This document shows, piece by piece, positions 8,796-12,797 of a stretch of 64,000 nt of DNA. The notes beneath the pieces were generated by a model, which saw only the letters and a program-made list of their open reading frames with translations, was not told the origin of the DNA and ran no database searches. A program made the translations under genes and the position numbers. Position 1 is the first letter of the stretch. Every line of letters begins with the position of its first letter. The stretch comes from Propionibacteriales bacterium (GTDB lineage: Bacteria > Actinomycetota > Actinomycetes > Propionibacteriales > Nocardioidaceae): NCBI GenBank assembly GCA_026392465.1, contig JAPLCA010000030.1:310001-374000 (forward strand). The letters run 5' to 3'.

Positions 8796-10027
8796 CCTCC
8801 GTGCCCGAGGAGACGGGGAGCCCGGAGGAGCAGGCTCCTCCGCTTCCACGTCTGCAGCTACGTGACCCCCTGCCTCCCGTCATCGACACGGTCGACGACT
8901 ACGTGGCCTACTGCGCGCGCGTCGCGCTCGGCCACGGCCCGGTGGCCCTCGACGCCGAGCGGGCGTCGGGCTACCGCTACTCCCAGCGGGCCTACCTCGT
9001 GCAGGTGCGCCGCGACGGGAGCGGCACCGGCCTGGTCGACCCCATCGCCTTCGACGACCTCGTCGACCTCGACGAGGCGATCGGCGACGCGGAGTGGATC
9101 CTGCACGCCGCGACGCAGGACCTGCCGTGCCTCGCGGAGGTCGGGCTCCACCCCAGCGCGCTGTTCGACACCGAGCTCGCCGGCCGGCTGCTCAACCTGC
9201 CGCGCGTCGGGCTGGCCTCCCTCGTCGAGCACTACCTCGGACTGAGTCTGGCCAAGGAGCACTCCGCCGCCGACTGGTCCACGCGACCGCTGCCCGAGCC
9301 CTGGCTCGAGTACGCCGCCCTCGACGTCGAGGTGCTCATCGAGCTGCGCAACCTGATCGAGGCCGACCTCGAGCGCACCGGCAAGCGGGAGTGGGCCGCG
9401 CAGGACTTCGAGGCGCTGCTGTCCTTCACCGGCGCGCCGGCCAAGGAGGAGCGCTGGCGGCGTACGTCCGGCATCCACCGGGCCCGCGGCCGACGCACCC
9501 TCGCCCTGGTGCGCGCCCTCTGGGAGGCGCGCGACCGGATCGCCGAGCAGCGCGACACGACACCGGGGCGGATCCTGCCCGACGCCTCAATCCTCGAGAT
9601 CGCGCGGGAGGCGCCGCGCGACGCCTCGACGCTGCGCAACCTGCCGGTCATGCGCTCCCGGGGGCCGCGACGCTTCCTGCAGCAGTGGCTCGACGCCGTG
9701 GAGGAGGGCCTCGCACTCCCGGACGACGCCCTGCCGCTCTCCACGCAGCACCGCGAGGGTCCGCCCCCGCCGCGCGCGTGGGCCGACAAGCACCCCGAGG
9801 CCGCGGCCCGGCTGACGGCGGCCCGCGAGGCGGTCACCCGCATCGCCGAGCAGCACGACCTGCCGCCGGAGAACCTCATCTCCCCCGGCCTCGTCCGCGG
9901 TCTGGCCTGGGACCCGCCGACCGTCGTCGACGTCGTCCACGTCGGTGACGCGCTCGCCGAGGGTGGAGCCCGTCCGTGGCAGGTCGACCTCGTCGCCGCC
10001 GACCTCGTCGACGCCCTGACGCCCTGA
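8792..10027 (+). CDS. rnd: Ribonuclease D-like 3'-5' exonuclease with HRDC domain
   Basis: A 411-residue DEDD-y exonuclease. Acidic residues are in place: D54 and E56 (ALDAE), D110 (ATQDLPCL), and the Y174xxxD178 pair (YAALD). An HRDC nucleic-acid-binding domain follows at roughly 215-300. It trims 3' ends of structured RNAs such as tRNA precursors. The TTG at 8792 overlaps the DUF3000 stop (TTGA) and has GAGG six bases upstream. A GTG at 8801 is the alternative. The C-terminal ~100 residues match the actinobacterial long form. Confidence 0.9.
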   Translation: MTSVPEETGSPEEQAPPLPRLQLRDPLPPVIDTVDDYVAYCARVALGHGPVALDAERASGYRYSQRAYLVQVRRDGSGTGLVDPIAFDDLVDLDEAIGDAEWILHAATQDLPCLAEVGLHPSALFDTELAGRLLNLPRVGLASLVEHYLGLSLAKEHSAADWSTRPLPEPWLEYAALDVEVLIELRNLIEADLERTGKREWAAQDFEALLSFTGAPAKEERWRRTSGIHRARGRRTLALVRALWEARDRIAEQRDTTPGRILPDASILEIAREAPRDASTLRNLPVMRSRGPRRFLQQWLDAVEEGLALPDDALPLSTQHREGPPPPRAWADKHPEAAARLTAAREAVTRIAEQHDLPPENLISPGLVRGLAWDPPTVVDVVHVGDALAEGGARPWQVDLVAADLVDALTP

Positions 10028-10071
10028 CTCCCCGGACGCACCCGGCTCGGGTCCTGCGCGGGATCACCCAC

Positions 10072-10090
10072 TGAGGCAAGGCGAACCTGA
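10072..10090 (+). promoter_or_regulatory. Putative IdeR/DtxR iron box
   Basis: TGAGGCAAGGCGAACCTGA matches 14 of 19 positions of the DtxR/IdeR consensus TTAGGTTAGGCTAACCTAA, including the AGG and AACCT cores. It abuts the -10 of the FTR1 gene, so bound iron-loaded repressor would block RNA polymerase. Confidence 0.75.
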
Positions 10091-10091
10091 G

Positions 10092-10097
10092 TAGCAT
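10092..10097 (+). promoter_or_regulatory. Leaderless -10 box of the FTR1 gene
   Basis: TAGCAT lies 6 nt before the GTG at 10104 and 1 nt after the putative iron box. Confidence 0.6.
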
Positions 10098-10103
10098 GTC
10101 GGT

Positions 10104-10937
10104 GTGCTCGCCAACTTCCTGATCGGTCTGCGCGAGGGGCTGGAGGCCAGCCTCGTCGTCAGCATCCTGCTGGCCTACCTCGTGCGCACGGACCGCCGCC
10201 GCGACGTCCGCTACATCTGGATCGGCGTGGGCGCCGCCCTGGCGCTGGTCGTGCTGGTCTTCACGGCCGTGACCCTCGCCTTCGAACAGCTCCCGTTCGT
10301 CTGGCAGGAGGCGGTCGGCGGGACGCTCTCGATCCTCGCCGCCGGCCTGGTCACGTGGATGATCTTCTGGATGCGCCGCACCGCGCGCGGGCTGAAGCGC
10401 GAGCTGGAGGGCGAGCTGGCCACGGCCGTCGAGCTCGGACCCGTCGCCATCGCCACGGTGGCGTTCCTGACCGTCGGACGCGAGGGCCTGGAGACCGCGG
10501 CCATCATCTGGGCGACGATCTCGGGCAGCTACACCGCCTCGCCGTTCGTCGGCGCGACCACCGGCATCCTCGTCGCGGTGCTCCTGGGCTACCTCATCTA
10601 CCGCGGCGCCCTGCGCATCAACCTGTCCACGTTCTTCCAGGTCACGGGCGCCCTGCTCATCGTGGTCGCCGCGGGCGTGCTGGCCTACGGCGTGCACGAC
10701 CTGCAGGAGGCCGGCATCCTGCCGGGCCTCACGAACCTCGCGTTCGACGTCTCCGGCGCGGTCCCGCCTGACAGCTGGTACGGCACGCTCCTCAAGGGCA
10801 CGGTGAACTTCCAGCCCGACCCGACCTGGCTGCAGACGATCGCCTGGGTGGTCTACGTGGTGCCGGTGCTGTGGCTCTACCTGCGCCCGCAGGCGAGCGC
10901 GGCCCCCGCCGCGCCGCGACCCGACGCGCACGTCTGA
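10104..10937 (+). CDS. FTR1-family iron permease
   Basis: A 277-residue, seven-span membrane protein with both REGLE iron-binding motifs, at residues 10-14 (LREGLEASL) and 126-130 (GREGLETAA). This is diagnostic of the FTR1/EfeU high-affinity iron permease family. It moves oxidised iron across the cytoplasmic membrane, usually with a partner. No efeO or efeB homologue follows here, so partners would be encoded elsewhere. The iron-box-like operator over the promoter predicts repression in iron-replete cells. The GTG start is set by the -10 spacing. Confidence 0.92.
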   Translation: MLANFLIGLREGLEASLVVSILLAYLVRTDRRRDVRYIWIGVGAALALVVLVFTAVTLAFEQLPFVWQEAVGGTLSILAAGLVTWMIFWMRRTARGLKRELEGELATAVELGPVAIATVAFLTVGREGLETAAIIWATISGSYTASPFVGATTGILVAVLLGYLIYRGALRINLSTFFQVTGALLIVVAAGVLAYGVHDLQEAGILPGLTNLAFDVSGAVPPDSWYGTLLKGTVNFQPDPTWLQTIAWVVYVVPVLWLYLRPQASAAPAAPRPDAHV

Positions 10938-10974
10938 CGCTCTCGATCTGGGTGCCGGACGACCGGCCCCCGGA

Positions 10975-10980
10975 TACGGT
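10975..10980 (+). promoter_or_regulatory. -10 box ahead of a leaderless mini-ORF
   Basis: TACGGT lies 7 nt before the ATG at 10988, which opens a 7-codon ORF rather than the main gene. Confidence 0.5.
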
Positions 10981-10987
10981 GGGGCCC

Positions 10988-11011
10988 ATGCCCGGACGGT
11001 CCGCAGGATGA
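10988..11011 (+). other. Seven-codon leader ORF coupled to the next gene
   Basis: ATG at 10988 encodes M-P-G-R-S-A-G and then TGA. The stop overlaps the ATG of the following gene at 11008 (ATGA). The mini-ORF stands at leaderless spacing from TACGGT. The main gene has no usable ribosome-binding site, so ribosomes probably reach it by termination-reinitiation. Confidence 0.55.
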
Positions 11012-11598
11012 GCGACTTCCACCGCCCGTCCCTGCCCGGACAGGGACTCTTCGAGGCACTCGCGCACGACACCGACCCGGCCGAGGTCGCCGCCGCCGGG
11101 CACCGGATCGCCCACCTGCTGGTGCGGGGCCCGATCGACCGCGAGGACCGCGACCTCGTCGACCGGGTGCTGCACCTGTCCGACGTCGAGGGGCTCGGCG
11201 TCATCGCCGAGCTCTGGTCGCACGCCCCGCCGGACACGCTCTCGGGCGCCCTGTGGCGGCTCTACCTGCTGCGCGAGTGGGTCCACCGCCAGCCCCGTCA
11301 GGCCGCCGCCGAGTTCGCCGCCGGACGCGGCTTCGCTCCCGTGCACGAGGTGCTCGCCGGCGTCGTCGACCCTCCCGGCGCCGACGAGGTGGTCGACCTC
11401 GTCGACACCGTCGTGCGCGGCATCGTCGTCACCGACCTCGACGTCGTGCTCGACCGCGCCGCAGCGTTCGCGCACATCGTCGGCGTCGGCCGCGGGCAGC
11501 TCGACGACGTCGACGCGCACAGCGGCGCGCGCCTGCTCGACATGGCGCTGCACCTGCGTCGGTCCGCGGCGCTCGAGCGGTCCGGCTCGCTGCACTGA
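11008..11598 (+). CDS. Conserved actinobacterial protein of unknown function
   Basis: A 196-residue soluble acidic protein, largely helical by composition. The recognisable stretch ALWRLYLLREWVHRQP around residue 85 and a C-terminal AAAFAHIVGVGRGQ segment are conserved in actinobacterial proteins, some of which I recall being named, without good reason, RNA polymerase beta subunit. No catalytic motif is visible. The start at 11008 overlaps the stop of a 7-codon leader ORF. A candidate small RNA follows on the same strand. Confidence 0.7.
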   Translation: MSDFHRPSLPGQGLFEALAHDTDPAEVAAAGHRIAHLLVRGPIDREDRDLVDRVLHLSDVEGLGVIAELWSHAPPDTLSGALWRLYLLREWVHRQPRQAAAEFAAGRGFAPVHEVLAGVVDPPGADEVVDLVDTVVRGIVVTDLDVVLDRAAAFAHIVGVGRGQLDDVDAHSGARLLDMALHLRRSAALERSGSLH

Positions 11599-11674
11599 GC
11601 CGTCCGCGGGGCGTCGTGCGACGGTCGATCGCGGCCCGCTGAAGGCGGTATCGCAGGCCACGCGACCACAGCGC

Positions 11675-11702
11675 TTGTGTGCGCCCGGAGGCCGGTTAGG
11701 CT
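11675..11702 (+). promoter_or_regulatory. Two-box sigma-70-type promoter of a candidate small RNA
   Basis: The -35 TTGTGT (11675-11680) and -10 TAGGCT (11697-11702) are separated by 16 nt. This is one of few promoters here with a clear -35. The predicted start, near 11709, falls on the first base of a perfect 12-bp stem. Confidence 0.6.
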
Positions 11703-11708
11703 GGTCAT

Positions 11709-11793
11709 CGCGCCGGGCCGCGGTAAGCCCCGGGTCCCAAAAATAGCCGCTACGAGCGGCCACGCGCCGTGAGGCGCTTCCCGGCCCGGCGCG
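11709..11793 (+). ncRNA. Candidate structured small RNA (unidentified)
   Basis: The ends pair perfectly: CGCGCCGGGCCG at 11709-11720 with 11782-11793. Inside are two hairpins. One is GCCGC/GCGGC with loop TACGA (11746-11760). The other is GCGCC/GGCGC closed by a GTGA (GNRA) tetraloop (11764-11777). A single-stranded A-rich stretch, CCCAAAAATA (11736-11745), stands out in this GC-rich genome. No ORF covers it, and a full promoter ends at its 5' base. It lies between convergent genes. I could not match it to tmRNA, SRP RNA, RNase P RNA, 6C RNA or any riboswitch class I can recall. A terminator-only role is the main alternative. Confidence 0.5.
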
Positions 11794-11819
11794 TCACCCG
11801 TCCCCTGCCGTGCGCCGGC

Positions 11820-12797
11820 TCATGCCGGCGCGAAGGTCGTGTACGACTGCGCCGGCCGCCCGATCGACGCGAGCTCCGCGAGGTCCTCCTCGGTCGGCTG
11901 CCACGAGACGGCGTCGGCGTTCGCCGCGACCTGCTCCGGACGGGAGACGCCCGCGATGACGCTGCTGACCGCAGGCTGGGCCGCGAGCCCGCCCATCGCC
12001 AGCTCCAGGAGCGAGATGCCCCGCGCGTCGGCGAAGGTCTGGAGGGCGTCGATGCTCTCCCAGTCGGCCGTGGCGAGCCGCTCGGACTGCGTCGCGAGCC
12101 GGGTCCCCTCGGGAGCGTCCTCCCCGCGCCGGTACTTGCCGGTCAGCAACCCGTAGGCGAGCGGGAAGTACGGGAGGATCCCGACCTCGAGGTGCTCGCA
12201 GGCGGGCGCCAGCTCGACCTCGGCGGTGCGGTTGTACAGCGAGTACTCGTTCTGCGCCGTGGTGAACCGCGTGAGTCCGGCCGTCCGGGCGCGCCAGTCG
12301 GCGTCGACCAGCTGCCAGGACTGGAAGTTCGAGCAACCCACGGCCCGCACGGTGCCGGCCTGCACGAGGGCGTCGAGCGCCTCGAGCGTCTCGTCGAGCG
12401 GCGTGGCGGGGTCCGGCGTGTGCAGCTGGTAGAGGTCGACGTGGTCGGTGCCCAGGCGCCGCAGGCTCGCCTCGACGGCGGTGCGGACGTACGCGGCACT
12501 CCCCCGTCGGCCGCCGTCGTCGCCGTTGCGTCCCTGCATGTCCATGCCGAACTTCGTGGCGACGACCACCTCGTCACGACGCGACCCGAGCGCCGCTCCC
12601 AGCAGCTCCTCGCTCGCGCCGAAGCCGTAGACGTCGGCGGTGTCGAAGAAGGTGACACCGCGCTCCAGCGCGGCGTCGACGACGGCGCGCACCTGCGCAG
12701 CGTCGATGCGCGTTCCGAAAGCGTTGCAGCCGATGCCGACGACGGGCACCTGGATGCCGGAGTGGCCGAGGGGACGGTGCAGGAGGTCGTGGCTCAT
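11820..12797 (-). CDS. Aldo/keto reductase
   Basis: A 325-residue NADPH-dependent TIM-barrel oxidoreductase of the YhdN/tas type. The catalytic tetrad is complete: D52, Y57 (DTADVYG), K82 (VATKFG) and H126 (LYQLHTPDP). The C-terminal cofactor segment VSSVIAGVSRPEQVAANA is present. The substrate is unknown; such enzymes reduce small aldehydes and ketones. The ATG at 12797 is preceded by a reverse-strand TAGGCT box (12805-12810) with a 7-nt gap, so the mRNA is leaderless. It is divergent from the small His-rich protein gene. Confidence 0.9.
   Translation of the reverse strand: MSHDLLHRPLGHSGIQVPVVGIGCNAFGTRIDAAQVRAVVDAALERGVTFFDTADVYGFGASEELLGAALGSRRDEVVVATKFGMDMQGRNGDDGGRRGSAAYVRTAVEASLRRLGTDHVDLYQLHTPDPATPLDETLEALDALVQAGTVRAVGCSNFQSWQLVDADWRARTAGLTRFTTAQNEYSLYNRTAEVELAPACEHLEVGILPYFPLAYGLLTGKYRRGEDAPEGTRLATQSERLATADWESIDALQTFADARGISLLELAMGGLAAQPAVSSVIAGVSRPEQVAANADAVSWQPTEEDLAELASIGRPAQSYTTFAPA

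Follow-up and report, generated by a model that had tools for sequence, protein, structure and literature searches.

The window, as we call the whole 64,000-nucleotide stretch of DNA that was analysed, comes from a genome whose genus is Aeromicrobium: a 97%-identical locus (G029) is a sequence of Aeromicrobium sp. CnD17-E, and the name Aeromicrobium is carried by 14 of the 16 loci among the named-collection matches listed. The region of interest lies on the plus strand, between the gene encoding the iron permease EfeU/FTR1 (efeU, 10104-10937; NF041756 EfeU with 349.9 bits, PF03239) and a gene encoding a protein of 196 aa (11008-11598, ATG at 11008-11010), hereafter called the main gene. The end of efeU is located 37 nt before a putative -10 box of the TANNNT type (TACGGT, 10975-10980, plus strand) and 70 nt before the main start, and the downstream neighbour of the main gene, on the opposite strand, encodes an aldo/keto reductase.

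On the same plus strand, a spacer of 7 nt (10981-10987) separates the -10 box from the ATG of a mini-ORF of 7 codons (10988-11011), which reads ATG CCC GGA CGG TCC GCA GGA TGA and encodes MPGRSAG. Its stop codon (11009-11011) overlaps the ATG of the main gene in an ATGA (11008-11011, plus strand). Transcription would start at the A of the mini-ORF ATG (10988, plus strand), as predicted from the 7-nt spacing and from the peak at 6-7 nt found in the genome sample described below, and the mini-ORF would then be leaderless. Direct reading of the sequence agrees on all these points with the original prediction, which had placed TACGGT 7 nt ahead of ATG 10988, and MPGRSAG with its ATGA onto 11008. 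The ATG at 11008 is the earliest ATG, GTG or TTG of the main frame after a stop, so that the ATG at 10988 does not belong to the main gene as an alternative start in its frame.

The main protein has no Pfam or NCBIfam family at an E value of 0.001, the best sub-threshold Pfam match (E 0.0056) being below the cut-off of the family concerned. No solved structural relative was found (best E 0.18). Its AlphaFold2 model is all-helical, with a low to moderate confidence (mean pLDDT of 65.6), and gives no fold match at an E value of 0.001. Many residues are near-invariant in the family of the main protein.

Leaderless-type starts and coupling in the genome sample

The spacing of TANNNT elements was analysed in a genome sample composed of the window and another 378,819 bases from its contig (442,819 bases in all), with 345 crude codon-usage gene calls. 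TANNNT precedes an in-frame RTG with a gap of 6 nt in 67 genes and of 7 nt in 21 genes (88 different genes out of the 345 calls), as against 0 to 6 genes for each of the other 29 gaps within 0 to 30. Judged by this spacing, leaderless-type starts are common in this genome and a gap of 7 is typical. The gap between TANNNT and the RTG of the mini-ORF, 7 nt, is the usual one of leaderless genes in the sample, and the statement that TACGGT is correctly spaced for a leaderless mRNA is in agreement with the peak at gaps 6 and 7. No two-hexamer, sigma-70-type promoter and no -35-type hexamer was found at 10800-11900; the promoter call is thus based on the -10 box only.

The sample is similar in kind to what has been published. 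According to Zheng et al. (2011; PMC3160421), about 19% of genes on average are leaderless in Actinobacteria, and TANNNT precedes their start by about 12 bp. In M. tuberculosis, Cortes et al. (2013; PMC3898074) count 22-26% of the genes as leaderless and find TANNNT 7-12 bp from the mapped starts, no conserved -35 and C as the commonest base at -1. A C also precedes ATG 10988, as in 12 of the 13 mini-ORF loci compared, T being found in L007.

Coupling of a leaderless mini-ORF to the next gene is rare in the sample. Among 90 noncoding sites near genes where TANNNT is followed by RTG at a gap of 6 or 7, 85 are in the frame of the gene and five are out of frame, two of which end in RTGA: the window locus and L115. 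The latter was rejected as a coupled mini-ORF, being probably, as judged from its sequence, the tail of an upstream gene. RTGA coupling is found 1, 1, 0, 1, 1 and 2 times at six control gap pairs and twice at gaps 6-7, and the 443-kb sample by itself shows no enrichment of such coupling at these leaderless gaps. An alternative count gives three cases at gap 7, one of which was rejected, vs 0-2 at other gaps. The credible coupled leaderless mini-ORFs amount to two in 345 gene calls. The second one, encoding MSRSSA, lies ahead of a 178-codon gene (L111/L129; contig C22:20532-21065, minus strand), and its coupling is kept in all three holders of this gene among the 49 genomes (its own genome, L130 and L131). 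Its -10 box, TAGGAT, partly coincides with the stop codon of the gene called before it, and we explain its absence from the count of noncoding sites by this overlapped stop, the box having been masked as coding. Elsewhere in the sample, a leaderless-type ORF of 7 codons (VSYYQRE; L117, minus strand, around 15246 of the reversed stretch) is uncoupled and ends about 56 nt before the start of a called gene.

When sequences are shuffled with the frame left free and a leaderless ATG fixed at its place, a fraction of 0.31 end in the overlap. The overlap of this one locus, taken alone, is within chance. It is only by the comparison of relatives that it goes beyond chance, RTGA being present in 14 of the 15 mini-ORF loci. 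If each length arrangement has a chance of about 0.28 to end in the overlap, six of seven or five of six arrangements doing so gives 0.003 or 0.008. The number of independent arrangements (six or seven) is our judgement from the tree; the loci are related.

Starts of the main gene among relatives

The main gene is present in 49/49 Aeromicrobium, 137/149 family and 37/118 class genomes sampled. The 5' ends of 93 orthologues were compared, i.e., 109 loci minus 16 that are each 5'-identical to one of the 93; this set takes in only part of the 137 family genomes with the gene. The genus set contains 50 rows, the 49 Aeromicrobium and L069, which belongs to another genus and is nested among them in the tree. 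The 49 Aeromicrobium genomes comprise 15 with a leaderless mini-ORF, 19 with a direct leaderless main start and 15 with another arrangement (an apparent Shine-Dalgarno leader or an upstream gene), the corresponding numbers for the 50 rows being 15, 19 and 16. Outside the genus set, 22 of 43 rows have a direct leaderless start, 21 have neither form and none has the mini-ORF. As the leaderless codon is exactly at the aligned position in 19 of 49 relatives, the position of the main start is fixed.

We split the 16 genus rows with neither form according to our reading of duplex energies and sequences. In nine of them, a Shine-Dalgarno-like element reaches -6.9 to -14.3 kcal/mol (L005, L012, L020, L025, L027, L036, L037, L064, L074), and in seven the main start is close behind the end of an upstream ORF (L024, L026, L028, L030, L069, L070, L072), L024 combining such an end with a strong Shine-Dalgarno element. 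A short ORF, of 6 codons in L024 and of 5 codons in L030, is located 17 nt (L024) or 14 nt (L030) ahead of the main start and apparently links a long upstream ORF to the main gene, through a stop/start overlap with each of them.

The mini-ORF loci form two groups in the tree, one made of L001-L004 and the other of 11 rows within a clade of 25. The mini-ORF label requires eight changes on the tree, six of which are forced by well-supported branches; the count of 15 rows is inflated by the relatedness of the loci. The mini-ORF is not lost in close relatives, since the window and its three nearest relatives all retain it.

In all 15 mini-ORF loci, TANNNT is found at a gap of 6 or 7 before the leaderless codon. 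The mini-ORFs have 7 to 12 codons and end in ATGA or GTGA at the main start in 14 loci, L021 having an overlap of 8 nt (ATGACTGA). The distance from the mini-ORF ATG to the main start is 20, 26, 29, 32 or 35 nt, all equal to 2 modulo 3, and 19 nt in L021. The 93 loci were also scanned for TANNNT with a gap of 4-9 in the 90 nt upstream of the main start: no ATG or GTG is both out of the main frame and without its end at the main start, and a single TTG candidate (L025) is neither in frame nor ending there. The block GGATACGGTGG.GCCCATG, which runs from the promoter to the ATG, has one difference in the more distant L004, amid diverged flanks. Between L001 and L004, 8 of the 17 inner bases of the mini-ORF differ, with length and overlap kept. 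The peptides are MPGRSAG and MPARCPR in two orthologues that are 94% identical in their main protein, and MTSSPRSAA, MTAALGHRARG and MIVTPRTRR are found in other loci. As read from the aligned relatives, the overlap is conserved while length and peptide change. Of the two features that the original prediction proposed to compare among related genomes, length and overlap, the second is what the relatives have kept. In one clade, some peptides (MTSAPRAAR and similar ones) faintly resemble the N-termini of distant relatives (MSETPRHHRP in L092), a likeness considered in view of a possible origin of the mini-ORF as a former N-terminus lost by a frameshift.

Closely related loci differ in the way the main start is approached. 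L007, with a mini-ORF, and L006/L062, with a direct start, are sisters in the tree; the -10 box follows the efeU stop by 15 nt in the former and 13 nt in the latter, and the main start follows the -10 box by 33 nt and 6 nt, respectively. In L009 and L013, the main gene overlaps the end of efeU in a GTGA, and the 3' end of efeU contains a -10 box (TACCGT) placed 6 nt upstream of this GTG, so that two inputs to one start codon are possible. In other loci (e.g., L017, L019, L023), RNase D instead of efeU is next upstream and the leaderless spacing persists. An origin of the mini-ORF as a decayed efeU tail was considered and rejected as a general explanation: among the 14 of 15 mini-ORF loci that could be analysed (L014 has no efeU match), the efeU frame is that of the mini-ORF in one (L011). 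Taken together, the routes to the main gene seem to include a direct leaderless start, a leaderless mini-ORF, an upstream gene and a Shine-Dalgarno leader, depending on the orthologue. Such interchangeable modes of entry at one gene fit a device that delivers ribosomes and do not favour a sensor.

How ribosomes may reach the main start

We consider it likely that a TANNNT promoter following efeU, the leaderless mini-ORF and reinitiation act together to load ribosomes on the main gene. The promoter, 37 nt downstream of efeU, would give an mRNA whose first base is the A of ATG 10988. A ribosome would begin on the 5'-terminal AUG, read the seven codons and terminate on the UGA within AUGA. On the model of termination-reinitiation systems, it would then step back by one base and reinitiate on AUG 11008, from which the main protein would be made. 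The peptide would have no role, and the mini-ORF would be a frame adaptor through which an out-of-frame leaderless start leads to main-gene expression. A dependence of the main gene on translation of the mini-ORF is plausible. Counter-evidence comes from the 34 of 49 Aeromicrobium genomes without the mini-ORF, which indicate that the main gene can do without it.

One alternative is that the mRNA starts around 10988 with a short leader, ribosomes binding a weak element ahead of 11008 and the mini-ORF being incidental. According to the original prediction, the main gene has no ribosome-binding site. This has to be qualified: the best anti-Shine-Dalgarno duplex before 11008 is weak, involving GGACGGU six nt ahead of the start, but a complementarity of -6.9 kcal/mol (CGGACGGUC) does exist. 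Values of -6 kcal/mol or better are found in 9 of 15 mini-ORF loci, the proportions being about 21% for random places and 4/41 for direct loci, and four loci without a mini-ORF at leaderless spacing (L005, L012, L020, L064) reach -6.9 to -14.3 kcal/mol. The main start may thus recruit ribosomes partly by itself, and weak elements may aid or even replace reinitiation. As a full account of the locus, the short leader is nevertheless rather unlikely, since the overlap is still kept in L008, L011, L018 and L022, where the duplex is of only -1.7 to -3.2 kcal/mol, and since it predicts neither distances that stay at 2 modulo 3 through changes of length nor an ATG 6-7 nt from the -10 box in 15/15 loci. 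It is more doubtful still that the main gene is expressed mainly from the efeU transcript, the -10 box and the mini-ORF being minor or chance features. The efeU end 70 nt upstream on the same strand, the GTGA by which efeU itself ends on the main start in L009 and L013 and the failure to find a two-hexamer promoter would all be in line with such a transcript. It is opposed by the -10 box that L009 and L013 also have 6 nt before the main GTG, by the leaderless spacing that persists behind RNase D and by the conservation of the block from the -10 box to the ATG amid diverged flanks.

The architecture would also permit regulation of the main gene by slow or stalled reading of the mini-ORF, which would then be an attenuator or a nascent-peptide sensor. 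Polycysteine attenuators of mycobacteria, on which Canestrari and colleagues worked in 2020, reportedly have a leaderless short ORF at the operon 5' end; they are said to carry cysteine runs, and the Aeromicrobium mini-ORFs have none. Cysteine-rich leaderless uORFs have also been proposed as sensors in mycobacteria, which provides a precedent (Shell et al., 2015; PMC4633059). At the present locus, this role, which the original prediction had put forward as an attenuator-like sensor, finds little to sustain it and seems very improbable. The mini-ORFs share no conserved regulatory codon run, as would be expected of an attenuator, and their peptides differ even between orthologues with 94% identity; no terminator-like site was found at 10800-11900, in a search that Rho-dependent attenuation would escape, and no Rfam family at 10000-12000; the fold of the first 100 nt is not unusual (z -0.68); and the main gene has no assigned function, hence no amino-acid pathway to match. 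Compared with an attenuator, ribosome loading by termination-reinitiation is the best reading of the locus. The other role envisaged by the original prediction, a loading device, is the one that the relatives bear out, as the overlap is retained through changes of length and peptide, and a direct start or the end of an upstream gene is swapped in.

A broader view, which we put forward tentatively and would not yet give even chances, is that the promoter is held after efeU while modes of entry are interchangeable, the mini-ORF being a selected, peptide-independent frame adaptor: each time a change of length moves the 5' ATG out of frame, RTGA-ending lengths would be the ones kept. If this were true, coupled mini-ORFs would let bacteria tolerate the drift of promoters and start codons in leaderless genes, and this tolerance could be measured in the natural experiment that the Aeromicrobium series provides. 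Within one genus and 49 genomes, the locus suggests that the conserved trait of a leaderless mini-ORF can be its stop/start linkage and not its peptide. A leaderless mini-ORF also appears exchangeable for a direct leaderless start at one gene, which bears on the evolution of leaderless genes, and the sister loci are material for testing the efficiency of reinitiation after a leaderless mini-ORF. Finally, caution is called for, as leaderless short ORFs need not all be regulatory sensors.

Comparison with known systems

The closest known relatives of this arrangement are the "coupled" leaderless small ORFs of mycobacteria, which are defined by RTGA linkage and over-represented there, with an example whose linkage, but not peptide, is conserved between species and for which a raised ribosome supply has been suggested (Shell et al., 2015; PMC4633059). 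With its 7 codons and its ATGA at 11008-11011, the mini-ORF has the 5-50 codons and the RTGA overlap of this class, and the conservation of the coupled architecture between species is found as RTGA in 14 of 15 loci from two separate groups of the tree. The likeness concerns a small ORF, here predicted to be leaderless from its spacing, a TGA overlapping the next RTG and a conservation of linkage but not of peptide. The present case differs in that it belongs to Aeromicrobium, with another family and another gene, and is a prediction from sequence; furthermore, one gene is seen here in direct leaderless, mini-ORF, upstream-gene and Shine-Dalgarno forms.

An out-of-frame upstream ORF with an AUGA overlap is also found at ppe2 of M. 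tuberculosis. This gene has no Shine-Dalgarno motif and was shown with reporters to need the overlapping uPPE2, mainly through termination-reinitiation (Kipkorir et al., 2024; PMC11260477). In that system, uPPE2 possesses a Shine-Dalgarno motif of its own, downstream of a B12 riboswitch, whereas the spacing points here to a leaderless mini-ORF, and the Rfam search of 10000-12000 gave no family. Termination-reinitiation also operates at overlapping gene pairs, with the ATGA overlap as a coupling device (Huber et al., 2019; PMC6728339). While that survey deals with gene pairs, the same ATGA device is associated here with leaderless ORFs of 7-12 codons.

The leaderless genes described by Zheng et al. 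(2011) and Cortes et al. (2013) are direct ones, a form taken by 41 of the 93 orthologues, as opposed to the mini-ORF of the window locus. Initiation signals are known to switch between orthologues in Actinobacteria (Zheng et al., 2011; PMC3160421). A literature search on leaderless genes in Aeromicrobium turned up nothing beyond a review on tacrolimus in Streptomyces, and a narrow one that included translational coupling in actinobacteria gave no match. The predicted arrangement is of a type already known from mycobacteria; what is new here is its apparent occurrence in another family, together with an evolutionary series of its forms.
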